64,000 nucleotides of DNA from Acidobacteriota bacterium (lineage in GTDB: Bacteria > Acidobacteriota > UBA6911 > RPQK01 > JAJDTT01). The notes below the pieces were generated by a model. That model was not told the DNA's origin, ran no database searches, and saw only the letters and a program-made list of their open reading frames with translations. Position numbers and translations under genes: made by a program. The stretch spans positions 1 through 64,000 of the forward strand of contig JAPPLF010000042.1 in NCBI GenBank assembly GCA_028874215.1, written 5' to 3'. Below, piece by piece: positions 3,477 to 22,304 of the stretch; the stretch's first letter is position 1; the number at the start of each line of letters is the position of its first letter.

Positions 3477-5384
3477 ATGGTGAAACGCCGGCGACATTCT
3501 GACCGCCCCGGATTCTCGACATTGCGTGCGTGTTTCTTTGGGGCGGCTTGTATCGCGTTGTTGTTTTCGGTTCCGTCCGCCGGCCGGCTCGAGGCGCAAT
3601 CCTCCGGCGAAGAGGCCCCTGCCGAGCCGACCTTGGTCTCGGTCTTTCCTCCCGGCGGGCAGCAGGGATCCGGCGTAGAACTCGAGATCCGGGGAGAAGC
3701 TCTGGACGGCGCCTATTCGCTCGTCTTTGGTTCCTCCGGCCTGGAGGCCCGGGTCGGCAAAGTCGAGATGATCGAGCGGCCTAAACCGGCGGGTCCGTAT
3801 CCCAAGAAGGAGAAATCGCTCCCCTTCTATCGCGTCACGGCGCGCCTCACCCTAGATTCGTCGGTTCCCGCCGGAACCCATCCGTTTCGCTTGGTTTCTC
3901 ATCGAGGGGTTTCCAACGCGATTGACTTCCGGGTGGATGAAGCCGGCGTCATCAGCGAGATCGAGACCCCGCACCCGTCCGCCCGGCAGGCCCAGGAGAT
4001 CGACATCCCCGTCATCGTCAACGGCCGGATCGACGAGCATGGCGAGCTGGACGCCTACGGGTTCGACGCGGTTGCCGGTCAGGAGCTCACCTTCGAGATC
4101 ACTCAGGCGGCGCATTTCGAGCCGCGCCTCGCCCTTTACCGTCCCACCGGGAGCTGGCTCGATCCCGACCGTCCCACTCGTCTGCTTTTCCGGGAGCAGG
4201 AGTCTTCTGACCTGATTCCGATCCGGCCCATTTACTCCTACCGCGTGGCGGAGTCGGGCCGCTATTTGGTCGAAGTCGCGTCGCTCTTGGGAAAAGGGGG
4301 CCCCGACTGTGGTTATCAGCTTCGGGTTCTGACCACCGGTCCGGCTCCGCGGGCCAGTTCCGAACCCGCGTGGACCGAACGGGACTTCACCCGGAAGATC
4401 GACGGCGAGTGGACCGGCCGGCTCCGGTCCCGGACGGTCCGGCAGGCGAATCCGGATTCCCATCCCACGGAGAGCGCCTCCGGCGCCGGGAGCCTGGCGG
4501 CGTCCCCCGATTCTCCTCCTTCGGCAGTGACTCCGGCTCCTGAGAGCCGGTCCCGCCTCCGGGAACAGGAGCCGAACGAGGCGCGCGGCCAAGCCCTGCC
4601 GTTGGCCGTGGGAGACATCGTCGAAGGCAACATCAGCGCGCCCGGCGACCGCGACACCTACGCGTTCGAGGGGGAGGCGGGAGCGGAACTGGTGTTCGAG
4701 ATCGAAACCTCCGGCGTGGAGCCGCCCCATTTCAACCCGCGCCTGGAGCTTTTGGGAGAAGACGGCGAATCGCTGCTGGCCAACGTTCACAAGCATGTGA
4801 CGGTCTACAACGGCGGTGGCATCCCCAGCACCTTTCTGAAGACGGTCGAACCCAAGATGGCCTACACCCTGGAGCGGAGCGGCCGATACTTCGTGGAGGT
4901 CAGCGACATCACCGCGCGGTACGGCGGTCCGGAATTCGGGTATCGGCTGCTTGTTCGCGCTCCGATTCCCCACGTGGGCGCCATCGAAGTGGACCCGTCC
5001 GACCGCATCAACCTGGTCCCGGGACGAGCCCGGAAACTGAGCATCGTCACGCATCAGGAGGAGGGGTTTGCCGGGGAAGTCCTGTTTGACTGTTCCAACC
5101 TGCCGCCCGGTGTCCGGGTTTTTGCGGGAGCCGATGTGGAGAAGAAGGGTTCGGCTCCCGTCAGCCAGCAGGAGGAAAATTTCCTGCCCGCCGTGCAGAC
5201 CACGACCCTGGTCCTTTTGGCCGACCCGGATGCTGCAGTCACCCGCATGCCTTCATTGGTCCGCTTGACCGCCAAGCCCGTGGTCGGGGGCCGGGTTGGC
5301 GCAGAACTGCCTGTCGCGGAGCTCCTGCTGATGGTGGTCGCCCCTGCCGGTCCGGATCAGGCTGCCGAGCAAGGGGGCTCATGA
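3477..5384 (+). CDS. Exported protein with two pre-peptidase C-terminal (PPC) domains
   Basis: 635 aa with an N-terminal basic region and hydrophobic signal (about 20-40). An Ig/IPT-like domain comes first (TLVSVFPPGGQQGSGVELEI, about 50-140). Two PPC beta-sandwich domains follow, at about 180-290 (DAYGFDAVAGQELTFEI ... YLVEV) and 370-485 (DTYAFEGEAGAELVFEI ... YFVEVSD). A low-complexity Pro/Ser/Arg linker separates them. No protease domain is present. PPC modules usually aid secretion or substrate binding. The gene overlaps the following DUF1549 gene by 4 bases (ATGA). This triplet, PPC protein then DUF1549/1553 then DUF1501, recurs in Planctomycetota and Acidobacteriota. Function unknown. 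Confidence 0.85.
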   Translation: MVKRRRHSDRPGFSTLRACFFGAACIALLFSVPSAGRLEAQSSGEEAPAEPTLVSVFPPGGQQGSGVELEIRGEALDGAYSLVFGSSGLEARVGKVEMIERPKPAGPYPKKEKSLPFYRVTARLTLDSSVPAGTHPFRLVSHRGVSNAIDFRVDEAGVISEIETPHPSARQAQEIDIPVIVNGRIDEHGELDAYGFDAVAGQELTFEITQAAHFEPRLALYRPTGSWLDPDRPTRLLFREQESSDLIPIRPIYSYRVAESGRYLVEVASLLGKGGPDCGYQLRVLTTGPAPRASSEPAWTERDFTRKIDGEWTGRLRSRTVRQANPDSHPTESASGAGSLAASPDSPPSAVTPAPESRSRLREQEPNEARGQALPLAVGDIVEGNISAPGDRDTYAFEGEAGAELVFEIETSGVEPPHFNPRLELLGEDGESLLANVHKHVTVYNGGGIPSTFLKTVEPKMAYTLERSGRYFVEVSDITARYGGPEFGYRLLVRAPIPHVGAIEVDPSDRINLVPGRARKLSIVTHQEEGFAGEVLFDCSNLPPGVRVFAGADVEKKGSAPVSQQEENFLPAVQTTTLVLLADPDAAVTRMPSLVRLTAKPVVGGRVGAELPVAELLLMVVAPAGPDQAAEQGGS

Positions 5385-7963
5385 GCTTTCACGGGACCGA
5401 TCGATTTACTCTCGCGAGGAATCGCCCACGGCGACTGCGCCCGGCCCTCTGCTCGACCATTGCCGTCGTTGTCTCATTCCTTGCGTCCGCGCCGGCCGCC
5501 GTCGTGGAACCCGCGCCGAGCCATCCTCCGACGCTGCTCTCCCTGCGTTTGGTCCCGGAGCAGGTGAGCCTTCAGGGCCCGGGGGCTTCCCAGCGATTCG
5601 TGGCCATGGGGACGTTCGCCGACGGACTGGAGCGGGATCTGACTGCCGGCAGCCGGTTTCATCTCTCCGATACCCAACTGGCCCGTGTGGACGATGGCGG
5701 TAGGGTCGTGGCCCTGGCGCCGGGGGAGTTGACTCTACGGGTCGAGCACGGAGGACACGAGGTCCGTTCGAGGGTTCGAATCGACGCGGTTGCGGAACCG
5801 AGGCCCTTCCGTTTCGATCGCGATATCGCCTCTATACTGACCAAACGGGGCTGCAACGCCAGCGAGTGCCACGGCAGCGTCAAGGGGCAGGGAGGATTCA
5901 AGCTTTCCCTCGACGGCCTCTATCCGGAAGAAGACCACGAGTGGATCGTCAAAGGTGGGATCTACCAGGTTCTCGTCATGGAATCGGGGGGGCCGCGGGT
6001 CCCCCGGGTGAATCCGGGGCATCCGGAGCAGAGCCTGTTGCTGCAGAAGGCCACCATGCAGGTGGGCCACGTCGGAGGTGAGCGCATCGGCGCCGATTCC
6101 GCGGACTACGCCACCCTCCTGGACTGGGTCCGGAAGGGGGCCGAATACGGCGATCGGAGTGAAGGCGGGCGGATCGCGCGAGTGACGGTCTTCCCGCAGG
6201 AAGCCGTTCTGGACGGCGACGGCGTGCAGCAGCTTCTGGTGAGCGCCTACGGGCCCGACGGACGGCGCGAGGACATCAGTCACCAGGCTCGTTACGTCTC
6301 CCAGAACCCCCACGTCGTGACGGTCGACGAGAACGGCCGCGTTACGGCCACCGGAAGGGGAGAGACGACGGTGCTGGTCCGCACCGCAGGTCATGCCGTC
6401 AGTGCACGCTTCGGAGTAGTGGACGCGTCGGCTCCAGTCGAATTCAGAATCGAGCCCCGGAATCTCATCGACAAGCACGTCTTCGCCAAATTGCGGAAGT
6501 TCCAGATCCGTCCTTCTGCGCTTTCCAGCGATTCGGAATTCCTGCGCCGCGTCTGCCTGGACATCACCGGCACCCTGCCGCCGCCGGATCGCGTCCGGGA
6601 ATTCCTGGCCGACACCGACCCTGGGAAACGGGACAAGCTCATCGAGACTCTCCTGGACTCTCCCCAGTACGCGGACTATTGGAGCTTCCTGTTCGCCGAC
6701 CTGTTCCGGGTGACCTACACCACCGTGGGCCCGATCAAAGAGGTCAAGGCATACGACGACTGGGTCCGCAACGGCATCCTCCAGAACAAGCGGTACGACC
6801 GCATGGCGCGGGAACGTATCGCCGCTCAAGGGTACGGGGCTCCCACCCGTCACTTTTTCCGTTATACCGAACTGATCGTGCCCCACGAGGTCATGGCCGA
6901 GCAGGTCCGCCTCTTCATGGGGCGCCGGCTGGATTGCGCCCAGTGCCACAATCATCCCTTCGAAACCTGGAGCCAGGACCAGTTCTGGGGAATGACCGCC
7001 TTTTTCGGAAACGTCACGCAACTTCTGGATTCTCAGTTGGTTTTCGACAATCCGGAGGGTGGGCGATCCTATGACTTGAAACAGGAGGGCATCAAGACCG
7101 TCCATCCGCGCCGGAAGGAAGAAGTCCGGGCCAGATTTATGGACGGGTCATTCCCGACCGGGGAACAGGAGCGCGATCCGCGCCTGGCTCTGGCCGAATG
7201 GATCATCGCCCAGCCCGCCTTTGCGGAAACCATCGTGAATCGGGTCTGGGGCTATTACTTCGGCCGGGGAATCGTGGACCCGGTGGACGACTTCAAGGTG
7301 TCCAACCCGCCGACCCATCCCGTGCTGCTCTCCGCGCTGGCGGAAGACTTCGTGGAACACGGCTACGACCTGAAGCATCTCATGAGGCTGATCGCCCGGT
7401 CGCGGACCTACCAGTCTTCGGGAGTCCCCAACCGGACCAACAAGGAAGATGGAATCAACTATGCGCGGGCGTTGGCCCGGCCGTTGCAGGCCACTGTCCT
7501 GCTGGACGCCATCTCCCACGCCACCGGAGTCCCGGAGGAGTTTCCGGTGCACCCCAAGACGGTGCGCACCGGAGCGGCTCGCCCGGGGGCCCGGGCCATC
7601 GACCTGATTCCCGAACTTTTCCCCTGTCATTTCCTCGACGTCTACGGACGGTCCATGCGCAAGTCGCTTCCGGAAAAGCCGTCCCTGACGTTGACCCAGG
7701 CCCTGCACATGTGGGCGGGATCGACCTATACCACCAAGATCACGCAGGAAGGCGGACGTCTCGACCGGGCGCTGAAGGAAGGCCTGTCCGATTCCCGGAT
7801 CATCGAAGACTTCTACCTGGCGGCGCTGTCGCGATACCCGACCGAACGGGAAAGATCCGACCTGGAAGCGTTTGTCCGGGAGGGCTCCTCCCCGCGGCCG
7901 GAGCAATTGGCGAACCTGATGTGGGCCCTCATCAGTTCGCGGGAGTTCGCATACAATCATTGA
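5381..7963 (+). CDS. BIG2 / cytochrome-motif / DUF1549-DUF1553 exported protein
   Basis: 860 aa with a signal peptide (about 20-42). An Ig-like group 2 domain comes first (about 55-130). A heme-type motif CNASECH (C-x4-C-H) sits near residue 157, in the variant seen in this family. A second BIG2 domain spans about 265-345, then DUF1549 (about 355-570), with CAQCHNHPFETW near residue 523, and DUF1553 (about 600-850). The two C...CH motifs suggest c-type heme or metal binding outside the cytoplasm. It is co-translated with the PPC protein upstream and followed by a DUF1501 gene. The biochemical activity of the family is not established. Confidence 0.87.
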   Translation: MSFHGTDRFTLARNRPRRLRPALCSTIAVVVSFLASAPAAVVEPAPSHPPTLLSLRLVPEQVSLQGPGASQRFVAMGTFADGLERDLTAGSRFHLSDTQLARVDDGGRVVALAPGELTLRVEHGGHEVRSRVRIDAVAEPRPFRFDRDIASILTKRGCNASECHGSVKGQGGFKLSLDGLYPEEDHEWIVKGGIYQVLVMESGGPRVPRVNPGHPEQSLLLQKATMQVGHVGGERIGADSADYATLLDWVRKGAEYGDRSEGGRIARVTVFPQEAVLDGDGVQQLLVSAYGPDGRREDISHQARYVSQNPHVVTVDENGRVTATGRGETTVLVRTAGHAVSARFGVVDASAPVEFRIEPRNLIDKHVFAKLRKFQIRPSALSSDSEFLRRVCLDITGTLPPPDRVREFLADTDPGKRDKLIETLLDSPQYADYWSFLFADLFRVTYTTVGPIKEVKAYDDWVRNGILQNKRYDRMARERIAAQGYGAPTRHFFRYTELIVPHEVMAEQVRLFMGRRLDCAQCHNHPFETWSQDQFWGMTAFFGNVTQLLDSQLVFDNPEGGRSYDLKQEGIKTVHPRRKEEVRARFMDGSFPTGEQERDPRLALAEWIIAQPAFAETIVNRVWGYYFGRGIVDPVDDFKVSNPPTHPVLLSALAEDFVEHGYDLKHLMRLIARSRTYQSSGVPNRTNKEDGINYARALARPLQATVLLDAISHATGVPEEFPVHPKTVRTGAARPGARAIDLIPELFPCHFLDVYGRSMRKSLPEKPSLTLTQALHMWAGSTYTTKITQEGGRLDRALKEGLSDSRIIEDFYLAALSRYPTERERSDLEAFVREGSSPRPEQLANLMWALISSREFAYNH

Positions 7964-7966
7964 GGT

Positions 7967-7996
7967 GGAGCGGCGGTTTCCAAACCGCCGAACTCC
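7967..7996. repeat. Intergenic palindrome (TTTCC-loop family)
   Basis: CGGCGGTTT-CC-AAACCGCCG is a perfect 9-bp-arm palindrome at 7971-7990, with GGAG/CTCC outer pairs. It sits 8 bases after a stop codon. It resembles other intergenic hairpins in this window. Confidence 0.75.
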
Positions 7997-8066
7997 CGCG
8001 AAACGATGAGGCCAAAAGGGAACGGACGACTGAAAATTTGACACCCCAATGACCAACGGAGAAAGA

Positions 8067-9416
8067 ATGTCGAAAGAATACCGATGTTTCCAGTGCAGGC
8101 GGACCAGACTCGGGCGCCGCGACTTCCTCCGTGTCGGCTCCCTGAGCTTTCTCGGGATGAACGCCGGCGACCTCTTCAGGCTGGAACGTCTCCAAGCGGC
8201 CTCCAACGACAAGCCGGCGGCCGGACAGGCGCAGGCGTGCATTCTCCTCTTCCTGGAGGGCGGTCCCAGCCAGATGGACACCTGGGACCCCAAGGGGAAC
8301 ACCAACTTCGGCTCCATCGCCACCAATGTCGACGGCATCCGCATCTCCGAACTCCTGCCCAAGACGGCCCAACACATGGACAAGCTCTCGCTGATCCGTT
8401 CCATGCGGACGGAGGAGACCAACCACCCGCAGGGAACCATCGAGTCGCTGACCGGCCATCGGCCCAGCCCCACCATGAAGTTCCCGGGATTCGGGTCGAT
8501 CGTGGCCAAGGAAATGGGCGCCCGCAACAACATGCCGCCGTTCACCACGGTCCCCATGCCTTGGGAGAACGACTTCTACAACTACGAGGAGGCCTTCAAG
8601 GGCTCGTACATCGGAGCCGAGTATGACGCCATGGTCCTGCCGGACCCCAGCGGCGAGGAATTCGCCGTGCCCGATCTCCGGTTGCCCAAAACGGTTTCCG
8701 CCGCGGCCATCGAGGATCGCAAGACTCTGCTCAGCATCGTTGACCGGCACTATCGGTCCACCCAGGAGGTCGCCGAGTTCGGCAAGATGGACACGTATCG
8801 CGAGCAGGCGCTGGGCATGATCCTGTCGCCGCACGTCCAGAAGGCCTTCGACCTCTCCAGCGAATCGGAGAAGACCCGGGACGCGTATGGACGCCACCGC
8901 TTCGGACAGAGCGTGCTGATGGCCCGCCGCCTGGTGGAGGCCGGATGCCGCTTCGTCACGGCGGCCGGCTACAAACACGGGCAGTGGGACACGCACGGGA
9001 GCAACGACAAGCGGATGAAGGACGACTTGACGCCTCCCCTGGACAAGGCGCTCTCCGCTCTGTTGGAAGATCTGGACCAGAGAGGTCTGTGGGAATCGAC
9101 GGTGGTGCTGGTCATGGGAGAGTTCGGACGCACCCCCCACATCAATCCCGGCCTGGGACGGGATCACTGGCCCCACTGCTGGTCGCTGGCGCTGGGCGGC
9201 GGCGGTATCCAGGGGGGACAGGTCATCGGCGTCAGCGACGACCGGGCGGCCTACGTTGCGGAACGCCCCATCTCCATCGGCGACCTTTACGCCACCATCT
9301 ACAAGGCGCTGGGAATCGATTGGACCAAGACCTACATGGCCCCCGTGGGTCGTCCCGTCTACATCGCCAACGGTTTCGACGACACCATGGGGCAGCCCAT
9401 CCCGGAATTGATCTGA
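8067..9416 (+). CDS. DUF1501 family exported protein
   Basis: 449 aa from the ATG at 8067, chosen because GGAGAAAG lies just upstream. An in-frame ATG at 8049 lacks a ribosome site. The N-terminus RRDFLRVGSLSFLG is a twin-arginine type signal. The body has the alkaline-phosphatase/sulfatase-like DUF1501 fold, with LEGGPSQMDTWDPK near the start and GEFGRTPHINPGLGRDHWPH near the end. Family members are linked to DUF1549/1553 proteins, as here. The enzymatic role is not known. The conserved Asp and His residues suggest a metal hydrolase ancestry. Confidence 0.87.
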   Translation: MSKEYRCFQCRRTRLGRRDFLRVGSLSFLGMNAGDLFRLERLQAASNDKPAAGQAQACILLFLEGGPSQMDTWDPKGNTNFGSIATNVDGIRISELLPKTAQHMDKLSLIRSMRTEETNHPQGTIESLTGHRPSPTMKFPGFGSIVAKEMGARNNMPPFTTVPMPWENDFYNYEEAFKGSYIGAEYDAMVLPDPSGEEFAVPDLRLPKTVSAAAIEDRKTLLSIVDRHYRSTQEVAEFGKMDTYREQALGMILSPHVQKAFDLSSESEKTRDAYGRHRFGQSVLMARRLVEAGCRFVTAAGYKHGQWDTHGSNDKRMKDDLTPPLDKALSALLEDLDQRGLWESTVVLVMGEFGRTPHINPGLGRDHWPHCWSLALGGGGIQGGQVIGVSDDRAAYVAERPISIGDLYATIYKALGIDWTKTYMAPVGRPVYIANGFDDTMGQPIPELI

Positions 9417-9512
9417 CAGCCCGTCGTGAACCCGTCCGTCAGATCGGATAGCCTCGATACTCCCTGGCCGCTTGGTTCCTGTCCGAATCTGGGCCGTTCC
9501 ATCCCGAGTCGG

Positions 9513-12188
9513 ATGCATGCCCTGACCCTGTACCGGGACCAATACGGTCCACCCCGGGACGTGGTCCGCTTGGAGGAGGTAGAGGTTCCACGCCTCCGTG
9601 CGGCCGACGCCCGGGGAGTCCTGGTGGCCGTTCTGGCCAGCGGACCCAACTTCAATACCAATTTCGCGGCTCTGGGACTGCCGGTTCCCGTCTTCGCCCG
9701 GGGCGACAGCGCCATCCTCCACATTCCGGGAAGCGACGCGCTGGGAATCGTGGTGGATGCCGGTCCCGCGGTCCGGTCGGTGAAGGTGGGTCAGGCCGTC
9801 ATTCTCGATTCCTGGACCGGACACAACATTCGAGGCTATGAGACCCACGACGGCTTCAATGCCCAGTTCGCCATGGTCGACGAGGAACGGGCCATTCCGG
9901 TCCCTCCCTCCCTCGGCAGCCATAGTCCCGAGCAGTTGTCGGCCATGCTGCTCACCTATGGAACGGCCTACCGCACCGTGGTGGAGCGCCTGGCCGTCGG
10001 TCCGGGAGACTCCATGCTGGTCCTGGGCGGAGGGAAGGGAACCAGCTTCGCCGCCGCGCAACTGGGAAAGGCCCTCGGGGCCCGCGTGGTCCTGATGGGT
10101 TCCAATCCGGCGTTGGGCCGGTCGCTCATCGAGCGGGGAATCGCCGACTCCTTCGTCGACCGGCGGCAGATCCCGGCCGAAGTCTTCGGCGTGGTCGACG
10201 TCGGGGAGGAATACGGCAAGTGGCATGCCCGGACCGAGCCCTTTCGCCGCATCGTGCTGGCCGCCAACGACGGCCGTCCGGTGGACACGGTCTTCGAGCA
10301 TACCGGGGGCGCCAATTTCCCCCTGCTGGTTTCGGTTCTTGCCCCCAAGGGCCGGCTCGCCTTCTTCGGCGCCACCGGACGTGGCCTCAAGGGCGAATAC
10401 AAGGAGACCTTCTTCTACGACGGACGCCGGTTCGTCCTGGATGCCCGCTGGGTCTGGATGCGCCAGAAGCAGGTCCTCTTTCGGAGCGGGACCCCAGCGG
10501 AGATCTTCTCGGAGATCGGGCTGCTGCCGGGGCGAAGAGGGCTGGTCTGGGGCGCTGACCGGTACGCGCGGGAGTTCGTCGAAGCGGCGCTTCAGCGGCG
10601 GGCGGACCTGGCGGTGGTCGCGTCCCGTTCCCGGGAAGCAGAGGGACTGGCCGCTCTGTCCCGCATGGGCCTCGACGGGTCGCGGATCATCGACCGCGAC
10701 CGGTTCCGGCTACCCGTCGACATGCCGGATCCCTTGACCGACGAAGGGACGCCGAATCCCGCCTACATGTCCGACTTCATGCTGGACGCACGCGCTCTCG
10801 GGAGGGCCATCTGGGAGGTCTTCGGCCCCCGGGTCAATCCGGACTTCATCGTGGAGCGTCCCGATCAGAGCACGCTCCATGTCAGCACCTTCCTGTTGAG
10901 GGACCATGACGAGAAGGACGAGATGTCCTGCGGCATCATCGTGGCCCGCGGGTCGTCCGATCTGACCGTCTCCGGATCCCACATGTATCGGGCCGCACAG
11001 GCCCGCGAGACGGTTCGCCTGTTGGCCCGGAACCGGATCGTCATGGACCAGGAGGACCTGGAAGTGGTGGATCTGGCGGGTTTGCCGGAGATCCAGCAGA
11101 AGATGCTGGACGGCACCATGGCGAAACCCAAGGGTGTGTCGCTCGTCCAGGCGGACGGTGCGGGCCGGAAGATCTCCGACTACGAGGCCGAATACCTGGG
11201 CAGGACGCTCCGCGAGGCCGACCCGGAAAACGGCCGGTTCATCGACTTGAGCCTGATCGAAGAGGTGGGAATCCTCACCCTCCGGCGGCCGGACGCCCTG
11301 AATGCCCTCAATCAGGAACTGCTGGCCCAGCTTGCCCAACTGACGGAGGAGCTCGGAGCGCACGGAACCCTCCACGGAGGGAGGACGACCGCCCTGATCG
11401 TGCGCGGTTCCGGACGCGCATTCGTGGCGGGGGCCGACGTTCAGGGCTTTGTGGGAGGGGACGCCGAGTCCATCCGGCGGCTGGCGGCGGAGAACATGGC
11501 TCTCTTCCGGCGAGTGGAAACCCTGCCTCTTCCGGTGGTGTCGATCGTGGACGGTTTCGCACTGGGCGGCGGCAACGAGCTGGCCATGAGCACCCACTAT
11601 CGAATCGTCACCGAAAATGCCGTCATCGGACAGCCGGAGGTGAAGCTCGGCATCATCCCGGGGTACGGGGGCATGCAGCGGCTGCCGAGGCTCGTCGGTC
11701 CGCGGAGAGCCGCCGAAATGGCGGTCAACGGAGAGTCGGTGGACGGACGCACGGCGGTCCGGATCGGGCTGGCCCACGAGCTCCATCCCGCCTCCACCGC
11801 TCTGACCAGGGCGTTCCGGGTAGCGGACGAGCTCCGGTCCGGTGCGCGCCGATTCCAGGCGTCCGATTGGGACGAGCTTGCCGCCGGTCAAAGCCGGGCG
11901 TTGGAGGCGCTTTACGGAAGCGATGCCGTGAGCGGAATCCTGCAATCACCCACGCCCGTCGGCGAAGCGGCGGAAGGTCTTCGGGCCGCTCGCCGGTTCG
12001 CGGCCCGGCTGGCCCTGGATGCCATGCGGTTCGGTTACGAACGCGGATTCAGCCGCGGCATGGACAACGACGCGAGACTGTTCGGTGAAGCCGTGGCGTC
12101 GGAGTCGGGTCAGTGGTGGGTGCGGCGCTTCCTGGCAAAGGACCCCAGGCAGTCCGCCTTCGTGACGTTGCTGCAGCCTGAGGGTTGA
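9513..12188 (+). CDS. Fusion: crotonyl-CoA reductase-like MDR (two units) plus enoyl-CoA hydratase
   Basis: 891 aa from the ATG at 9513 (MHALTLYRD). A GTG at 9426 would add 29 residues of low-complexity sequence. Residues 1-330 are a medium-chain reductase of the crotonyl-CoA carboxylase/reductase type: SGPNFNTNFAALG, HIPGSDALGIVVDAG and the nucleotide loop GGGKGTSFAAAQLGKAL near 170. Residues 330-560 look like a second, incomplete reductase half, with GLVWGADRYAREF as a Rossmann-like start. Residues 576-830 are a crotonase. Its GGGNE Glu689 and QPEV Glu709 are 20 residues apart, the same spacing as the two catalytic glutamates of rat enoyl-CoA hydratase (144 and 164), so the hydratase should be active. 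Inferred role: reversible hydration of an enoyl-CoA and reduction of its double bond in one chain. Whether the reductase part carboxylates is unknown. Confidence 0.8.
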   Translation: MHALTLYRDQYGPPRDVVRLEEVEVPRLRAADARGVLVAVLASGPNFNTNFAALGLPVPVFARGDSAILHIPGSDALGIVVDAGPAVRSVKVGQAVILDSWTGHNIRGYETHDGFNAQFAMVDEERAIPVPPSLGSHSPEQLSAMLLTYGTAYRTVVERLAVGPGDSMLVLGGGKGTSFAAAQLGKALGARVVLMGSNPALGRSLIERGIADSFVDRRQIPAEVFGVVDVGEEYGKWHARTEPFRRIVLAANDGRPVDTVFEHTGGANFPLLVSVLAPKGRLAFFGATGRGLKGEYKETFFYDGRRFVLDARWVWMRQKQVLFRSGTPAEIFSEIGLLPGRRGLVWGADRYAREFVEAALQRRADLAVVASRSREAEGLAALSRMGLDGSRIIDRDRFRLPVDMPDPLTDEGTPNPAYMSDFMLDARALGRAIWEVFGPRVNPDFIVERPDQSTLHVSTFLLRDHDEKDEMSCGIIVARGSSDLTVSGSHMYRAAQARETVRLLARNRIVMDQEDLEVVDLAGLPEIQQKMLDGTMAKPKGVSLVQADGAGRKISDYEAEYLGRTLREADPENGRFIDLSLIEEVGILTLRRPDALNALNQELLAQLAQLTEELGAHGTLHGGRTTALIVRGSGRAFVAGADVQGFVGGDAESIRRLAAENMALFRRVETLPLPVVSIVDGFALGGGNELAMSTHYRIVTENAVIGQPEVKLGIIPGYGGMQRLPRLVGPRRAAEMAVNGESVDGRTAVRIGLAHELHPASTALTRAFRVADELRSGARRFQASDWDELAAGQSRALEALYGSDAVSGILQSPTPVGEAAEGLRAARRFAARLALDAMRFGYERGFSRGMDNDARLFGEAVASESGQWWVRRFLAKDPRQSAFVTLLQPEG

Positions 12189-13262: not shown

Positions 13263-14732
13263 TTAGCTCGCCTGAAGGAGCCGTTGCGAGAGGTCGTTGT
13301 ATCCGCCCACGTCGGTGAGCCGCCGGTCTCGTCCCTGGAAGAAGTAGGTGAGTCCTTCGTGGTCCAGACCCAGCAGGGAGAGGATGGTGGCGTGCAGGTC
13401 GTGGACGTGGACCTTGTCCTCGGTCACCTTCATTCCCAGATCGTCGGTGGCGCCGATGGCCTTTCCTCCCTGGATTCCGGCTCCCGCCATCCAGCAGGAG
13501 AAGCCGTACGGGTGGTGGTCCCGGCCGAGTTTCCCCTGCACGAATGGGGTTCGGCCGAACTCTCCGGAACAGAATACGAGGGTGCTGTCCATCAGTCCGC
13601 GCTGTTTGAGATCCTGCAGGAGGCCGGCGATGGGCTGGTCCACCTTCCTGGAGTTTTCCCAGTGGTTTCGGGAGCACTGCTCGTGGCCGTCCCAGTCGGT
13701 GCTGATCAGGTGCACGAAACGGACGCCGCGCTCCAACATGCGCCGGGTCAGCAGGCACATCCGCCCGAACTTCCGGCTCTTTTCCTGGTCCAGTCCGTAT
13801 AGGCGCCGGACGTGTTCCGGCTCCCGGGAAAGGTCCACCAATTCCGGCGCAGCGGTCTGCATCCGGAAGGCCAGCTCGTAGTTGGTGATGCGAGCCGCCA
13901 GACTCGTGTCGTCGGCGCGGTCCTGGTAGTGCCGCCGGTTCGACTTCCGGATCCAGTCCAGGAGGTTCCGCTGATCCGCCGCGGTCATCTCCCGGGGCGG
14001 AGTCAGGTCCTTGAGGGGAGAGCCCTCGGAACGGAGCAGGGTGCCCTGATAGATGGCGGGCAGGAACCCGGAGCCGAAGTGGTTCCGGTTGGTCCGGCCC
14101 CACAAGTTGCCGTCGGTCATCACCATGTAGGCGGGAAGGTTGTCGTTCTCGCTCCCCAGGCCGTAGAGGATCCAGGACCCGACGCTGGGATGCCCGTTCA
14201 GGATGGAGCCGGTGCTGAGATAGTTGCTCGCCGGACCGTGGACGAAGGAGTCGTGGTAACAGGAGCGCACCACCGCCAGATCGTCGGCATGGGCGGCCAC
14301 GTTCCGCATGAGATCCGAAATTTCCAGGCCCGAGTCGCCGTACCGGCGAAAGGGGATGTCCGAACCCATCAGCTTGGCATCTCCGGCGGCGATATTGGCG
14401 AAATTGAGATCGTCCGAGGCGAAGCTCTGAGGAAGGGTCTGACCATCGAAGCGGGTCAGGACCGGCTTGGGATCCAGGGTGTCCACGTGGCTGGCGCCTC
14501 CCTGGAGATAGATAAAGACCACGTTGCGGCCGCGGGCGCTCCGGTGCGGCGGCTTGGGCGCGAGCGGGTGCGGGACCGGTTCCCGGGTTCCCTTGGCGGA
14601 GGCCGTCCGGAAGAACGATTCCCGCTCCAGCAGATGGATCAACGGCAGGGACCCGAAGCCCATTCCCCACTTGCTCAGAAACTCCCGGCGGGAGCCGGCC
14701 GTCTCATGGCGCTGGCAACGGAAGGGATTCAT
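13263..14732 (-). CDS. DUF1501 family exported protein (second copy)
   Basis: 489 aa with a twin-arginine type N-terminus (SRREFLSKWGMGFGSLP). It has the same family landmarks as the DUF1501 protein at 8.1-9.4 kb: YLQGGASHVDTLDPK and GEFGRTPFVQGKLGRDHHP. It is longer by about 40 residues and clearly diverged. It lies 15 bases downstream of the DUF1549/1553 gene at 14748-17372, in the same order as the first pair, so this is a repeated two-gene module. Confidence 0.87.
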   Translation of the reverse strand: MNPFRCQRHETAGSRREFLSKWGMGFGSLPLIHLLERESFFRTASAKGTREPVPHPLAPKPPHRSARGRNVVFIYLQGGASHVDTLDPKPVLTRFDGQTLPQSFASDDLNFANIAAGDAKLMGSDIPFRRYGDSGLEISDLMRNVAAHADDLAVVRSCYHDSFVHGPASNYLSTGSILNGHPSVGSWILYGLGSENDNLPAYMVMTDGNLWGRTNRNHFGSGFLPAIYQGTLLRSEGSPLKDLTPPREMTAADQRNLLDWIRKSNRRHYQDRADDTSLAARITNYELAFRMQTAAPELVDLSREPEHVRRLYGLDQEKSRKFGRMCLLTRRMLERGVRFVHLISTDWDGHEQCSRNHWENSRKVDQPIAGLLQDLKQRGLMDSTLVFCSGEFGRTPFVQGKLGRDHHPYGFSCWMAGAGIQGGKAIGATDDLGMKVTEDKVHVHDLHATILSLLGLDHEGLTYFFQGRDRRLTDVGGYNDLSQRLLQAS

Positions 14733-14747
14733 GGATCTTGCCGCTTC

Positions 14748-17372
14748 TCAGTCAATATGGCTGAACTCGTTGAGATTAAACAGGCCCAGGCAGAGCTGGG
14801 TCAAGGCTGCCGCCCGGGGCCGCGGGATTTTCTCGAGCTCGGCCGGCAGCTCGGACCAACTCTCCGTCTTCACCTCGCGGGCCCGGGCCGACATCAATTC
14901 CAGCGCCTCCTTCTTCTCCTCGGGCGAAGGCGCCCGGCTCAAGGCCAGCCGCCACGCTTTTTCGACCCAGGCTGCCGGGTCGTCCCCCTCGCTCTCCACC
15001 AGCCGGGACGCAAAGGCCACGGCCTGCCGGAAGGCCATCCGGTTGTTGAGGAACCAGAGGGCCTGCGGCGCCACCGTGGTGACGTCGCGGCGGGGGCAAC
15101 TCACGGCGTTCTGGGGGCTGTCGAAGACGTCGAACATGGGAAACCGGAGATTGCGGCGGCTGAGGATGTAGACGCCCCGGCGGTACTGGGATTCGGGGTC
15201 CGCAGCGGTCAGCCAACCTTTGGGACCTCCCAGGCTTGCCATCTCTTCATCTCCCAGCGGCGGCGCCGCCGGACGGCCGTACGCCCCGAGATTCAAAGTG
15301 CCGGCCGCCGCAAGTGTGGCGTCCCAGAGGACTTCCGCTTCCAACCGCCGCCGGTTCATTCTCCAGAGGAGACGGTTTTCGGGGTCCAGAGAGAGAGCGG
15401 CCGGGTCGCTGTGCAAGCTGGACATGCGGTAGGTGCTGGAGTTCAGGATCAGCCAGTGCATCGCCTTCAGGCTCCAGTTCCGGGCTGTGAACTCGACAGC
15501 CAGCCAATCCAGGAGCTGCGGATGGCTGGGAGCCTCCCCCTGGCGGCCGTAGTCGTTGGGAGTTCTCACCAGTCCTCGTCCCAAATGCCACTGCCAGAGC
15601 CGGTTCACCATGACCCGGGCGGTGAGAGGGTGGTCGGGACGGCTCAGCCAGAGCGCCAACTGCTTGCGGGGGCGTTTGTCCATTGATCCCGAGAAGACGC
15701 CATTGGGATCGGTCTCCCCGCTCAACACCGCCGGGAAGCCGGGTCCGACCCGTTCCTCCTTTTGTCTGAACTCGCCTCGACTCAAGACGTGAACGGGCGC
15801 GGAAGCCTCCGGATCGTAGTGACCCAGCACTGAAGCGGTCGGCAACTCAAGCAGTCCTTCGAACCGGACCAGATTGGAGCCCTCGATCTCGGAGACCTTG
15901 AGTACGGCCCGGGCCAGCCCGATAAGCAATTTTTCGTGTTCGTCCTTCTCCGGCCCGGTCAGAGCCTCCTCGAACTTGACTGCACGAACCGCCTCCATCA
16001 GGAGCTTCGCCAATTCTTCCTGCTCCGGGGTCCGACGATCCTTTTCCGTCTCGTAGGCCTCGACCACCTCCGGTGGAAATTTCGCTTTCTGCTCCTGTTC
16101 GATCCTCTTTTTGACCTGTTTCTCGAATCGGCGGTAAGCGGAACGGCCTTCGTCCACGGCGATGACGGCGGGGTAGTCGATGTTCCGCGAGACCGCCTGA
16201 ATGGGACTCATGACGGGGATGTCGACCTTGCGGCTGTTGGCAAACAGCGCTTGGAATGCGTAGTAGTCCCTCTGGCTGATGGGGTCGGCCTTGTGATCGT
16301 GACAGCGGGCGCAGCCCAGAGTGAGCCCCAGGAAGGCGGCGCCGGTGGTGTCCGCCCAGTCGGTCAGCTCCTCGGCGCGCAATTGCGCGCCATCCTGCAT
16401 CGACTCCAGCACTTCCGGCCCGAACGTGTAGAGGCCGGTTCCGACCCGGGCTTCCAGGTATTCGTTCTTCTTCAGGGGAATGGTCCGGCTCCCCAGCAGC
16501 TCGAATCGTTGGGGCCAAAGCTCGTCTCCGGCGATCTGCTCCTGCAGGAAGCGGTCGTAGGGCTTGTCCTCGTTGAACGACTTGATGACGTAGTCCCGAT
16601 AGCGCCAGGCGTTGGGATAGTAGTGATCCGACTCGTATCCGCTGCTGTCGGCATAGCGGACCACGTCCAGCCAGTGCCGGGCCCAGCGCTCGCCGTAGCG
16701 CGGCGATTCCAGCAACTCGCCCACCATCCTGCCGTAGGCGTCCGGCGAGTCGTCTCCCAGGTGCCGGTCCATCTGCTCCGGCGTCGGCGGAAGTCCGATG
16801 AGGTCGAAGTAGGCCCTTCGGATCAGGGTTCTCCGGTCGGCCTCGGGAGCCGGTTTCAAGCCCTTCTCCTGCAACCGGGCCAGCACGAAGGCATCGATGG
16901 GGTTGCTGACCCAACCGTCCGCATCCGCCGCCGGAACGGCAGGCCGCTGGAGCTTCCGGAACGACCACCAGGAGGGTGGGGAGGGACCGTCATCGCGAAC
17001 GCTGGCCCAGGGGAGGCCGCCGTCGATCCAGCCGCGCAGCACTTCCAGATCCGCAGCCGCCAGCGGAGAGCCGCCCGGAGGCATTTTCAGCTCGCCGTCA
17101 TGGGACGCGGCCAGAAACAGCAGGCTCGAGCCGGCGTCTCCGGGGACCGCCGCCGGACCCCGGTGGCCGCCTTCCAGCAGAGCTTGCCGGCTGCCCAGAT
17201 CAAGTCCCCCCTGGCGCGCCACGCCATGGCAGGCAAGGCAGTCCCGCTCCAGGATCTGGAGAGCGTCGGCCGCCAAAGACCCGTCCGCTTCGGAACGGCT
17301 GGAACTACCCTCCAGAAACGGCAGCAAGCAACTGGATACGACGGCGAGTAGCAACCACGGCCGACTATTCAT
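14748..17372 (-). CDS. Cytochrome-c-motif / DUF1549-DUF1553 exported protein (PSD1 type)
   Basis: 874 aa with a signal peptide (about 5-22). A planctomycete-type cytochrome c domain with CLACH at about 45-49 follows, then DUF1549 (about 150-370, with CARCHDHKADPI) and DUF1553 (about 560-850). Unlike the paralogue at 5.4-8.0 kb it has no BIG2 domains, and it uses standard C-x2-C-H motifs. It is first in an operon with the DUF1501 gene. Heme binding outside the cytoplasm is likely. The reaction is unknown. Confidence 0.88.
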   Translation of the reverse strand: MNSRPWLLLAVVSSCLLPFLEGSSSRSEADGSLAADALQILERDCLACHGVARQGGLDLGSRQALLEGGHRGPAAVPGDAGSSLLFLAASHDGELKMPPGGSPLAAADLEVLRGWIDGGLPWASVRDDGPSPPSWWSFRKLQRPAVPAADADGWVSNPIDAFVLARLQEKGLKPAPEADRRTLIRRAYFDLIGLPPTPEQMDRHLGDDSPDAYGRMVGELLESPRYGERWARHWLDVVRYADSSGYESDHYYPNAWRYRDYVIKSFNEDKPYDRFLQEQIAGDELWPQRFELLGSRTIPLKKNEYLEARVGTGLYTFGPEVLESMQDGAQLRAEELTDWADTTGAAFLGLTLGCARCHDHKADPISQRDYYAFQALFANSRKVDIPVMSPIQAVSRNIDYPAVIAVDEGRSAYRRFEKQVKKRIEQEQKAKFPPEVVEAYETEKDRRTPEQEELAKLLMEAVRAVKFEEALTGPEKDEHEKLLIGLARAVLKVSEIEGSNLVRFEGLLELPTASVLGHYDPEASAPVHVLSRGEFRQKEERVGPGFPAVLSGETDPNGVFSGSMDKRPRKQLALWLSRPDHPLTARVMVNRLWQWHLGRGLVRTPNDYGRQGEAPSHPQLLDWLAVEFTARNWSLKAMHWLILNSSTYRMSSLHSDPAALSLDPENRLLWRMNRRRLEAEVLWDATLAAAGTLNLGAYGRPAAPPLGDEEMASLGGPKGWLTAADPESQYRRGVYILSRRNLRFPMFDVFDSPQNAVSCPRRDVTTVAPQALWFLNNRMAFRQAVAFASRLVESEGDDPAAWVEKAWRLALSRAPSPEEKKEALELMSARAREVKTESWSELPAELEKIPRPRAAALTQLCLGLFNLNEFSHID

Positions 17373-17519: not shown

Positions 17520-17942
17520 TTACGGCATCACGTCGAGACCCTCCAATTCGGCGGCGATCGACAGCCGCTGGTCAAGACAAACGAAGGTGAGAGGGGAACT
17601 CAATTGTTCCTGCACCAACATCGCGGCGGCAAGCTGACCCGCATCCGCGGCGCGCAAGGAATGCCGTGCCAACAGCAGGTTCGCTCGCACTCGAACGGCG
17701 AGGATGTCCGTTACCTCATCCCAATGGGAGGCGAAGGCATCGAATTGTCTGAGCAGGTTTCGCCGCTGCAGGCGAGTCAGCGCCTCTTCACGTGTCCGTC
17801 GTTCAATCGCGCTTACGATCTCGGTTCTTGTCCAGGCCCAGGTGATGATCCGGTCGTCTTCCGCCAATCGATCATGTGCCCAGCCACTTTTGGTTTCGGC
17901 AATGATCAGCGGCACCACCGCAGATGCATCCCAGTACCTCAC
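17520..17942 (-). CDS. vapC: PIN-domain ribonuclease toxin (VapC type)
   Basis: 140 aa PIN domain. The four acidic active-site residues can be placed as Asp5 (YWDASAVV), Glu41 (TRTEIVSAI), Asp100 (LRAADAGQLA) and Asp124 (CLDQRL), so it should be an active, magnesium-dependent RNase. It overlaps the antitoxin gene by 4 bases and is translated after it. Confidence 0.85.
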   Translation of the reverse strand: MRYWDASAVVPLIIAETKSGWAHDRLAEDDRIITWAWTRTEIVSAIERRTREEALTRLQRRNLLRQFDAFASHWDEVTDILAVRVRANLLLARHSLRAADAGQLAAAMLVQEQLSSPLTFVCLDQRLSIAAELEGLDVMP

Positions 17943-18220
17943 AACCGGTCCTTGCGATCCTCGGCCAGCGCCTCGGAAATGCTCACCGGCAACACCAGTC
18001 GAGGCTTGTCCAGAATAGCAGCCGCGCCGCCTCGGCCCGGTCTGATCACTCCTTGGCTGATCAGCCGTTCTCGGGCTCCCTGGTCTTCCCCGGCTCCTGT
18101 TGCAACAAGTCTCGCGACCGGTTTGCCGCGGTCGAGAATCTGGACCTCCCCGCCTCGCCGGACCTCCCGAACGTAGTATGAGAGATTGGCCTTCAACTCG
18201 GAAATCGACACCGTCGTCAT
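17939..18220 (-). CDS. Phd/YefM-type antitoxin
   Basis: 93 aa from the ATG at 18220. The frame is open 42 codons further, but that part reads through the operator-like repeats and has no family similarity. The N-terminus MTTVSISELKANLSYYVREV is a typical Phd/YefM DNA-binding fold, and GGEVQILDRGKPVARLV is the family's beta-hairpin. The C-terminal third should wrap the PIN toxin. The region just upstream carries two matching palindromic sites (18224-18259). Confidence 0.85.
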   Translation of the reverse strand: MTTVSISELKANLSYYVREVRRGGEVQILDRGKPVARLVATGAGEDQGARERLISQGVIRPGRGGAAAILDKPRLVLPVSISEALAEDRKDRL

Positions 18221-18223
18221 AGT

Positions 18224-18259
18224 GACTAATATAGTCTTAATAATGAGACTATTCAAGTC
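18224..18259. promoter_or_regulatory. Double operator-like site upstream of the phd antitoxin gene
   Basis: Two copies of GACT-N5-AGTC lie at 18224-18236 and 18247-18259, with centres 23 bases apart. Between them ATAGTCT and AGACTAT form a further perfect inverted repeat (18231-18252). The block ends 4 bases before the antitoxin start codon. It is probably where the Phd-VapC complex represses its own operon. Confidence 0.55.
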
Positions 18260-18350
18260 TGAAACAGAATTGTGGGTGACAAAGGAAGGAGAAATTTCCC
18301 CACCGGATGCTTCCCGGCCATTTTTTGATGCGTTCTCTCCCGTCACGGTC

Positions 18351-18980: not shown

Positions 18981-19115
18981 CGGATCTGGGTAAATGCCGC
19001 ACGGTGGCAGAATCGACTTTAACCGGTTTTCTTGTTAGTCTCGCCGGGTTTCCAGCGGGCGGTCGCCGGACCGGCGCCGGCTCGCACTGAGTCCCATCCA
19101 ACACCAGAGGCGCTC

Positions 19116-20111
19116 ATGGCGTTGACAACCGAATCGACCCCGTCGCAACAACTTGATCCCGCCACCCGGCTGGACTTCCTGCGCCAGATGCTCACGATTC
19201 GGGCGTTCGAGTTTCGCGTGGGGGAATTCTACGAACGGGCCGAGATGCCCGGCATCACCCATCTCTCCATCGGACAGGAGGCGGTGGCCGTCGGCGTCTG
19301 CGCTCACCTCGACCACAACGACTACATCACCAGCACGCATCGCGGGCACGGGCACTGCTACGCCAAGGGCGCCGGCCTCGTCCCCATGTTCGGGGAACTG
19401 CTGGGCAAGGCGAACGGATACTGCCGCGGCAAGGGCGGGTCCATGCACATCGCCGACCGGGAGACGGGCCACCTGGGCGCCAACGCCATCATCGGCGGCG
19501 GCATTCCGCTGGCGACCGGCGCCGCTCTCTCGGCGAAAGTTCTCCGGAACCGGGGCGTCGGCGTGTCGTTTTTCGGCGATGGAGCCCTCAACGAGGGCAT
19601 CCTGCTGGAATCGATGAACCTGGCCGCCATCTGGAATCTGCCCGCCATCTTCGCCTGTGAAAACAATCACTACGGGGAGTACACGCCGACGGAGCAGGTC
19701 ACGGCCGGCCGTCTCACGCTCCGCGGCGAAGCCTTCGGCATCCCTTCCGCCGAAGTGGACGGCATGGACGTCCTGGCCGTCTACGATGCCACGCACGCCG
19801 CCGTACAGCGCGCCAGGAACGGGGAGGGGCCCAGCTTCTTCGTCTTCGACACCTATCGCTATCTGGGCCACGGCATGTCGGACCGGACCCGGCCCTACCG
19901 GTCGCGCGAAGAAGAGGACCTGTGGCGGACCCGGCGCGACCCCATCGAGCGACTGCGGAAGCAGTTGCTTGAGGCCGGGCACACCAGCGAGTCGGAGTTG
20001 GACGCCATGGCGGAGGCGGTCAACGCCGAAGTGGAGGAAGCCGCCCGATTGGCTCAAGAGGCGCCGTTCCCGGACCCGGAAGAGGTGGACCGACATGTCT
20101 TCGCTGACTGA
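19116..20111 (+). CDS. pdhA: Pyruvate dehydrogenase E1 component, alpha subunit
   Basis: 331 aa from the ATG at 19116, with AGAGG upstream. In-frame codons back to 19032 add unrelated sequence. The thiamine diphosphate motif is GDGALNEG followed by NNHYGEYTP. HRGHGHCYAKG and YLGHGMSDRTRPYRSREE are typical E1-alpha landmarks, and the last includes the phosphorylation-loop equivalent. With E1 beta it decarboxylates pyruvate (or possibly a branched-chain 2-oxoacid or acetoin) and passes the acyl group to the E2 lipoyl arm. It overlaps E1 beta by 17 bases. Confidence 0.9.
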   Translation: MALTTESTPSQQLDPATRLDFLRQMLTIRAFEFRVGEFYERAEMPGITHLSIGQEAVAVGVCAHLDHNDYITSTHRGHGHCYAKGAGLVPMFGELLGKANGYCRGKGGSMHIADRETGHLGANAIIGGGIPLATGAALSAKVLRNRGVGVSFFGDGALNEGILLESMNLAAIWNLPAIFACENNHYGEYTPTEQVTAGRLTLRGEAFGIPSAEVDGMDVLAVYDATHAAVQRARNGEGPSFFVFDTYRYLGHGMSDRTRPYRSREEEDLWRTRRDPIERLRKQLLEAGHTSESELDAMAEAVNAEVEEAARLAQEAPFPDPEEVDRHVFAD

Positions 20112-21096
20112 AACCCGCCAACTCACCTTCAGCCAGGCCGTCAACGAAGCGATCCGGGAGGAGATGGATCGCGACCACCGGGTGATCCTGTTCGGCGAGG
20201 ACGTGGCGGCGGCCGGCGGGGTCTGGAAGGTGACCGAAGGACTCCTGGACCGGTTTGGGGCGGAACGGGTCCTGGACACGCCCATCTCCGAAGCCGGGAT
20301 CGCCGGGCTGGGGGTGGGGGCGGCCATGACCGGTCTGCGGCCCATCGTCGAGATCATGTTCGGCGACTTTCTGCCGCTCGCCTCCGATCAGATCGTCAAC
20401 CAGGCGGCCAAGACCTATTACATGTCGGGCGGGATGACAAGCGTCCCCATGGTCTTCCTCACCTCCATGGGAGCCGGGCGCCGTTTGGCGGCCCAGCATT
20501 CTCAGAGCCTGCAAGCCTGGTTCGCCCACATCCCCGGGTTGAAGGTGGTGCTGCCCTCCAGTCCTTACGACGCCAAAGGGCTGATGAAGACCGCCATCCG
20601 GGACGAAAACCCCGTGATCTTCCTACAGGACAAGGTGGACATCTACCAGAAGGGTCCGGTCCCCGATCCATCCCACGAGTACACCATCCCTTTCGGCCGC
20701 GCCGACGTGAAGCGGGTGGGAGATGACCTGACCCTCGTCGCCACCTCCAGCATGGTCCGCCAGGCCTTGGATGCTGCGTCCGAGCTGGCGGAGGAGGGAA
20801 TCGAGTCGGAGGTCATCGACCCGCGCACCCTGGCGCCGTTGGACGAAGAGACGTTGCTGGACTCGGTCCGAAAGACGGGACGGTGCCTGGTGATCGACGA
20901 GGGTTACCAGCGCTACGGGGCGGGAGCCGAGATCGCGGCTCTGGTCGGCGAAAATCTGTTTTTCGACCTGGAGGCTCCGGTTCGGAGGCTGGGCGCCATG
21001 GATGTCCCCGTTCCGTTCTCACCGACGCTGGAGGACCTGACCATTCCCGGCAAGGAGCAGGTCGTCGAGATCGCCCGCCAGATGTTCGAAGACTAG
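20095..21096 (+). CDS. pdhB: Pyruvate dehydrogenase E1 component, beta subunit
   Basis: 333 aa from the ATG at 20095, with AGAGGTGG upstream. The frame is open much further back, but that is shadow of the alpha gene. Landmarks are LFGEDVAAAGGVWKVTEGL, RVLDTPISEAGIAGLGVGAA and the dimer and thiamine region SGGMTSVPMVFLT. Then comes the transketolase C-terminal part, EVIDPRTLAPLDEETLLDSV. It forms the heterotetramer with the alpha subunit. Confidence 0.92.
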   Translation: MSSLTETRQLTFSQAVNEAIREEMDRDHRVILFGEDVAAAGGVWKVTEGLLDRFGAERVLDTPISEAGIAGLGVGAAMTGLRPIVEIMFGDFLPLASDQIVNQAAKTYYMSGGMTSVPMVFLTSMGAGRRLAAQHSQSLQAWFAHIPGLKVVLPSSPYDAKGLMKTAIRDENPVIFLQDKVDIYQKGPVPDPSHEYTIPFGRADVKRVGDDLTLVATSSMVRQALDAASELAEEGIESEVIDPRTLAPLDEETLLDSVRKTGRCLVIDEGYQRYGAGAEIAALVGENLFFDLEAPVRRLGAMDVPVPFSPTLEDLTIPGKEQVVEIARQMFED

Positions 21097-21131
21097 GGGC
21101 CTGCGCCGCCCATCCCAGCCGGAGAAGCAAC

Positions 21132-22304
21132 GTGGCCACTGAAGTCATCATGCCTGCGCTGGAAATGTCCCAGGAGCAGGGCGTCCTGGTGCGTTGGCTC
21201 AAGTCCGAGGGGGAGTTCGTGGCCCGGGGCGAGCCCCTGATGGAGATCGAGACCGACAAGGCGGTGATGGAGATCGAGGCCTCCGCTTCGGGGATCCTGT
21301 CCAACGTCACGGCCCGGGAGGGGGACGAGGTCCCGGTGGGGCAGGGGATCGCCTGGCTCCTGAACGAAGGTGAAGCGGCCCCCCCGCCGGCCGTCGGTGC
21401 GCCCAGGCCGCAGCGACCCTCCGCTCGCCCCGGAACCGCCCGCCGTGAACGCGAAACCAAGACTCCACCAGCCCGGTCACCGGCCCGCCGGGGAAGGGTC
21501 CGGGCAACCCCTCGAGCCAGGAAGCTGGCCCGGAAGTTGGGCATTGACCTGGCCGCCGTCACGGGAACCGGACCCAAGGGCGCCATTCTGCCCCGGGATC
21601 TGGAGGCGCACCAGACTGCTTCCAAGAAAGACGCCGCCGCGGAATCGGAGTATCGCGCCGTTCCCATCAAGGGAACACGGCGCTCCATCGCCCGCCGCAC
21701 GAGCGAGAGCTACCGGAACGCACCCCACATCACCCTCTCCCTCTCTCTGGACGTGACCGAACTGCAGGCCAGGACGACTCCGCAACGCCGGCTCACGCCC
21801 TGCCTGCTGAAAGCGGTGGCCGGCGCGCTCATGAAGCACCCCCGGCTCAACGCCCACGTTGTGGAGGAGGAGATCCGCGAGTTCGCGTCAGTCCATCTGG
21901 GCGTGGCCGTCTCGCTGGAAGACGGCCTCGTGGTTCCGGTGTTGCACAACGTGGAGCGGAAGGAAATCGAACGGATCCAGACGGAACTGGCGGATCTGGC
22001 CCATCGATCCCGAAAACGGTCGCTCCAGCCCGAGGAGATGAAGGGAAGCACCTTCTCGGTCTCCAACCTGGGCATGTACGGCATCGAGCAGTTCACCTCC
22101 ATCCTGAATCCGCCTGAGGTGGGGATCCTATCGGTGGGGACGGTCCGCGCCGTGCCGGTGGTGGTAGACGGGAAGGTCGCCGTCCGCTCCAGGATGCAGG
22201 TGACCCTGAACGCCGATCACCGGGCGGTGGATGGTGCGGTTGCGGCCCGGTTTCTGCAGACCCTCAAGGTGTCCGTCGAGTCCGCCGGCGAGGCGGTGTC
22301 CTGA
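21132..22304 (+). CDS. pdhC: Dihydrolipoamide acetyltransferase (E2) of the 2-oxoacid dehydrogenase complex
   Basis: 390 aa from the GTG at 21132, preceded by GGAGAAG. One lipoyl domain (1-80) carries the lipoylated lysine in EIETDKAVMEIEA. An Arg/Pro-rich linker follows, then a peripheral-subunit-binding domain (about 120-160, ATPRARKLARKLGIDLAAV). The acyltransferase core is short (about 175-390) and ends with the active-site motif DHRAVDGA, where the His is catalytic. No E3 gene follows, so lipoamide dehydrogenase must be encoded elsewhere. Confidence 0.92.
   Translation: MATEVIMPALEMSQEQGVLVRWLKSEGEFVARGEPLMEIETDKAVMEIEASASGILSNVTAREGDEVPVGQGIAWLLNEGEAAPPPAVGAPRPQRPSARPGTARRERETKTPPARSPARRGRVRATPRARKLARKLGIDLAAVTGTGPKGAILPRDLEAHQTASKKDAAAESEYRAVPIKGTRRSIARRTSESYRNAPHITLSLSLDVTELQARTTPQRRLTPCLLKAVAGALMKHPRLNAHVVEEEIREFASVHLGVAVSLEDGLVVPVLHNVERKEIERIQTELADLAHRSRKRSLQPEEMKGSTFSVSNLGMYGIEQFTSILNPPEVGILSVGTVRAVPVVVDGKVAVRSRMQVTLNADHRAVDGAVAARFLQTLKVSVESAGEAVS

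Follow-up and report, generated by a model that had tools for sequence, protein, structure and literature searches.

A putative ligase-free, order-swapped relative of propionyl-CoA synthase in Acidobacteriota and other bacteria

The window analyzed here, a 64,000-nucleotide stretch of an Acidobacteriota genome (contig JAPPLF010000042.1, positions 1 to 64,000), carries on its plus strand a gene (9426-12188; 920 codons) that encodes, in one chain, an N-terminal leader, an enoyl-coenzyme A (CoA) reductase with tandem Rossmann domains, and a crotonase. This window protein is best explained as a bifunctional 3-hydroxyacyl-CoA dehydratase/NADPH-dependent enoyl-CoA reductase, a relative of propionyl-CoA synthase (PCS) that has no ligase and in which the two remaining activities are swapped in order. 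PCS, a multicatalytic enzyme of textbook standing, has a single well-described architecture.

The reading frame is open from a GTG at 9426 to the stop codon at 12186-12188. A first-pass annotation, made from the sequence alone, described a one-chain fusion of a reductase, a reductase-like half, and a hydratase starting at 9513; the chain holds, as the frame is open and the domains are found, but the start does not, because it omits a conserved 29-residue leader (9426-9512). The leader motif, WPLGxxPxLxxx(L/I)PxxMxAL (about 25 residues), is kept across the family loci, and a similar motif (WPLGxxPxLxxxxPxxM) aligns in crotonyl-CoA carboxylase/reductases (CCRs). Since the leader is conserved and GTG 9426 is the sole start codon between an in-frame stop (9414-9416) and the motif, translation most likely begins there, upstream of 9513. 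Residue numbers below count from the Met at 9513; 29 is to be added for the full protein. With 28 homologous loci and a low dN/dS (the ratio of nonsynonymous to synonymous substitution rates), the protein is beyond chance: among congeners dN/dS is 0.13-0.15 for the protein as a whole and 0.09-0.14 for its degenerate middle, indicating purifying selection there too, while the C-terminal tail of the hydratase evolves fastest (0.37-0.45).

The reductase opens with an N-terminal catalytic part and a first Rossmann domain (residues 1-321; 9513-10475), which bears the GGGKGTS motif and ends in DARWVWMRQK. A second, degenerate Rossmann domain (325-480; 10485-10952) follows at the PCS-type insertion place, and the C-terminal catalytic part with its GSHM motif (481-562; 10953-11198) closes the reductase. 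The crotonase core (577-778; 11241-11846) is extended by a helical C-terminal tail (11847-12185) that aligns with the PCS hydratase tail. Pfam places ADH_N at residues 36-131, ADH_zinc_N at 180-292, and ECH_1 at 585-789; the last match (136 bits, E 1.5e-39) identifies an enoyl-CoA hydratase of the crotonase superfamily. Its predicted catalytic glutamates, Glu689 (11577-11579) and Glu709 (11637-11639), lie 20 residues apart, as the first-pass annotation had noted, and are invariant in an alignment of 24 family members. The top PDB sequence match is PCS from Erythrobacter sp. NAP1 (6eqo), in which residues 905-1203 align with the hydratase (584-877) and residues 1266-1727 with the reductase (10-463), the latter alignment taking in much of the middle region. 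Modeled in full by AlphaFold (mean predicted local distance difference test, pLDDT, 81), the protein also finds its best Foldseek match in 6eqo (E 8e-28; next protein, 3e-18). Both PCS (6eqo; also Chloroflexus Pcs) and the window protein combine a crotonase and an enoyl-CoA reductase in one chain, with ~24-32% identity. However, Pfam detects neither an AMP-binding domain nor a ligase domain of another type in the window protein, and its order is reductase-hydratase, in contrast to ligase-hydratase-reductase in 6eqo and haloarchaeal PCS; the earlier reading was right on both counts. Because these two defining features fail, the protein is not assigned to PCS.

Is the middle region really a second reductase half, as that reading proposed? 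Searched alone, residues ~340-510 match AntE, CCR and, weakly, PCS, and in the AlphaFold model strands and helices alternate, mostly at pLDDT ~80-96; both point to a reductase-type Rossmann unit and not to a non-reductase fold. An alignment that takes in the window family, CCRs, PCS reductases (6eqo, two from haloarchaea, and one from Acidobacteriota), and a haloarchaeal reductase that stands alone shows where the second domain is inserted: between the first Rossmann domain and the GSH motif, the same place in all PCS-type reductases aligned. The aligned CCRs lack it. GGGKGTS is present in the first copy and lost in the second. When each Rossmann domain was entered into a tree as a separate unit, window-family and PCS first copies formed a group that excludes CCR (98/97, starred); their second copies formed another (89/87, with a long-branch flag). 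With insertion point and tree both agreeing with PCS, the simplest account is a single duplication that preceded the split of the window family and PCS reductases; an independent duplication within the window family, at odds with both, is not favored. The first-pass annotation had drawn the parallel with PCS; the duplication and the reductase tree suggest kinship beyond analogy. By analogy with PCS, where the second Rossmann domain apparently has a structural role, it may have one here too.

The 28 loci, found by the search for the same architecture that the first-pass annotation called for, encode proteins with 61-94% identity to the window protein, in nearly all cases over the full length. 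The scan of genome contigs was pattern-based and targeted close relatives, so that the true number of loci is larger. The hosts are Acidobacteriota, Deltaproteobacteria including Desulfobacterales, Actinomycetota, and one record labeled Accumulibacter. Among 297 sampled genomes of the window's phylum the family is confined to the window's genus, and it occurs in 8 of 198 genomes from the phylum of a Desulfobacterales relative; the window's genus likely gained the gene through transfer. Comparison of the loci revealed no constant gene neighborhood for stand-alone members, while DUF1501/DUF1549-type genes precede those of the window's genus. The open-licence papers searched, which cover the literature in part and thus give a weak negative, do not describe this architecture.

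In four relatives (loci L040, L043, L044, and L050) the chain extends into ~1660 further residues, comprising a 520-residue domain and paired short-chain dehydrogenase/reductase (SDR) units, to give single proteins of ~2550 residues with reductase, hydratase, 520-residue domain, and SDR units (L043:8001-15665). The SDR part of L043 finds its best PDB match, in both halves, in Chloroflexus malonyl-CoA reductase (MCR; 8hjw), but the halves are reversed, the 520-residue domain stands in front, and the first unit has Gln in place of the canonical SDR Lys. Pfam and PDB searches with the 520-residue domain returned no match, and its predicted model is mostly helical and of low confidence (pLDDT 62); a ligase hidden there is thus unsupported. 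Elsewhere, the MCR-like protein is encoded by the next, overlapping gene (L033 and L045) or by a gene cut by the contig end (the genome of L052); in all, an MCR-like gene was found in 7 of the 25 relatives' genomes searched. Two loci retain fragments of it: the first ~80 and last ~26 residues just downstream in L036 (6260-6640), and the last part in L035 (10780-10910). These remnants are scars of an internal deletion that removed most of the gene. On the opposite strand, upstream, lies a gene for an ADP-forming acyl-CoA synthetase, identified with Pfam in L039 and L050 and through sequence clustering in L033, L036, L037, and L052.

Two other loci bear on these parts. An Acidobacteriota locus (L062:3453-14050) encodes a 2362-residue PCS-like protein (832 bits to 6eqo) in the order crotonase-ligase-reductase-hydratase; its gene overlaps by 4 bases that of a permuted MCR-like protein (1170 residues; 35% identity to the fused MCR-like part). 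This protein shares with the window protein the phylum and the reductase-then-hydratase order, and its MCR-like neighbor is related to the fused ones, but it differs in having an AMP-forming ligase, an extra N-terminal crotonase-like domain, and a reductase that groups with PCS proper. On a Haladaptatus plasmid (L077:1-8225), a gene of the acetate-CoA ligase family (ADP-forming type, going by the start of its sequence), a stand-alone tandem-Rossmann reductase, an enoyl-CoA hydratase, and a BCCT transporter are clustered; the set looks like a split PCS, perhaps for the use of dimethylsulfoniopropionate or acrylate.

What, then, does the window protein act on? 3-Hydroxypropionyl-CoA is the most likely substrate, given that some relatives are tied to MCR-like proteins or acyl-CoA synthetases, and, going by these sequence relationships, the protein probably acts as a hydratase/reductase on this C3 compound to yield propionyl-CoA, working like the back two thirds of PCS. 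The crotonase half would use Glu689 and Glu709 to dehydrate 3-hydroxypropionyl-CoA to acrylyl-CoA, and the reductase half, with NADPH in its first Rossmann domain, would reduce acrylyl-CoA to propionyl-CoA; with both sites in one chain, less of the reactive acrylyl-CoA would escape. Channeling of the enoyl-CoA between the sites, which the first-pass annotation had suggested, may fairly be assumed by analogy. The C3 substrate, the direction, and the preference for NADPH are all features that we infer.

Several observations weigh against this assignment. The chain has no ligase; the reductase is only ~30% identical to that of PCS, and its first half scores equally or higher against CCR; and a hydratase tree meant to reveal any fusion history shared with PCS, which has long outliers, does not clearly group window-family and PCS hydratases. 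The MCR-like part resembles MCR weakly (~93 bits), and, because Gln replaces the canonical Lys of the YxxxK motif in the first SDR unit of L043 and L062, it may not catalyze the reaction of malonyl-CoA reductase. In the window genome, no MCR-like protein was found beyond generic SDRs, and a search run without a positive control gave no match to the ADP-forming synthetase; with neither partner found, the link to 3-hydroxypropionate comes from the relatives only. The CoA thioester could come from an AMP-forming ligase or a CoA-transferase encoded elsewhere in the window genome. In favor of the assignment, methylmalonyl-CoA mutase is present there and offers a possible route for propionyl-CoA.

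Could the reductase instead fix CO2, as the first-pass annotation had entertained? A carboxylating enzyme would have the hydratase supply an enoyl-CoA, to which the reductase adds CO2 with NADPH to form methylmalonyl-CoA or ethylmalonyl-CoA. In KsCcr, the CO2 pocket is formed by Asn81, Phe170, Glu171, and His365 (PMC10966969). Alignments to 3hzz, a near relative of KsCcr, and to AntE place their counterparts at Asn48 (9654-9656), Tyr109-Glu110 (9837-9842), and His490 (10980-10982), the last after the second Rossmann domain. All four positions are invariant in the family, and the replacement of Phe by Tyr is seen in the CCR 4gi2 as well; Thr49, considered as a decisive difference in the site, was dropped since KsCcr Asn81 maps to Asn48. 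CCRs (4gi2, 6na3, AntE) also share with the window protein the catalytic fold, the leader, and the WMRQK and GSH motifs, and among NCBIfam models the one for CCR (TIGR01751) fits the reductase best. Its score, however, is 166.7 bits, far under the curated cut-off of 378.55, and CCRs have one Rossmann domain and no crotonase. PCS carries the same four residues, yet it is known for reduction and carboxylates only promiscuously, an activity raised by engineering (PMC10176493); because of this, the pocket residues are non-discriminating and, as judged from the alignments, neither show nor exclude carboxylation. With the Rossmann duplication and the tree siding with PCS and not with CCR, a carboxylating role appears quite unlikely.

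It is also conceivable, if on balance unlikely, that the pair serves other 3-hydroxyacyl-CoAs of short or medium length (C4 or longer), with no tie to 3-hydroxypropionate; it might, for instance, turn 3-hydroxybutyryl-CoA into butyryl-CoA during the metabolism of fatty acids or amino acids. The best scorers for the crotonase half are short-chain enoyl-CoA hydratases of broad use, the pairwise scores put the reductase as near to CCR as to PCS, and both the small share of genomes with an MCR-like gene and the shifting neighbors fit such a role; it is opposed by the MCR-like fusion, adjacency, and deletion scar in the relatives and by the closeness of the reductase to the one in PCS, which uses C3 substrates. 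That the enzyme runs in the oxidative direction, from acyl-CoA to 3-hydroxyacyl-CoA in propionate breakdown, is very improbable: crotonases are reversible and several hosts are probably heterotrophs, but reduction of an enoyl-CoA by NADPH is strongly downhill, known PCS and CCR act reductively, and nothing in the sequence favors oxidation.

A DUF1501 gene (8049-9416, plus strand) ends 9 bases before the GTG, an order found in three congeners, but a functional link between the two is probably absent. Sets of DUF1501 and DUF1549/DUF1553 genes lie on both sides (5381-9416 and 13263-17372), the order of the first being kept in the three congeners. Further along, two overlapping small genes on the minus strand (17520-18346) resemble a PIN-domain toxin and a Phd-type antitoxin, as judged by eye from their translations, and 19032-22304 holds genes for E1 and lipoyl E2 of a 2-oxoacid dehydrogenase complex.

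The fused relatives raise a broader, more tentative possibility: Deltaproteobacteria may have an unrecognized 3-hydroxypropionate arm with this family at its core, built independently of that in Chloroflexus, in which the ~2550-residue enzyme (reductase, hydratase, 520-residue domain, and permuted MCR) and the ADP-forming acyl-CoA synthetase would convert malonyl-CoA into propionyl-CoA, the lineage of the window protein having only the second half. We regard such an arm as rather doubtful at present. Should the fused MCR-like forms work in this way, 3-hydroxypropionate metabolism would go unnoticed in these bacteria by genome surveys for canonical Pcs and Mcr. The occurrence in several phyla of a sister family of PCS, with no ligase and with the order swapped, would mean that the hydratase-reductase pair can stand as a unit of its own, and the window protein would offer a natural minimal two-site system in which to ask if fusion alone contains acrylyl-CoA.
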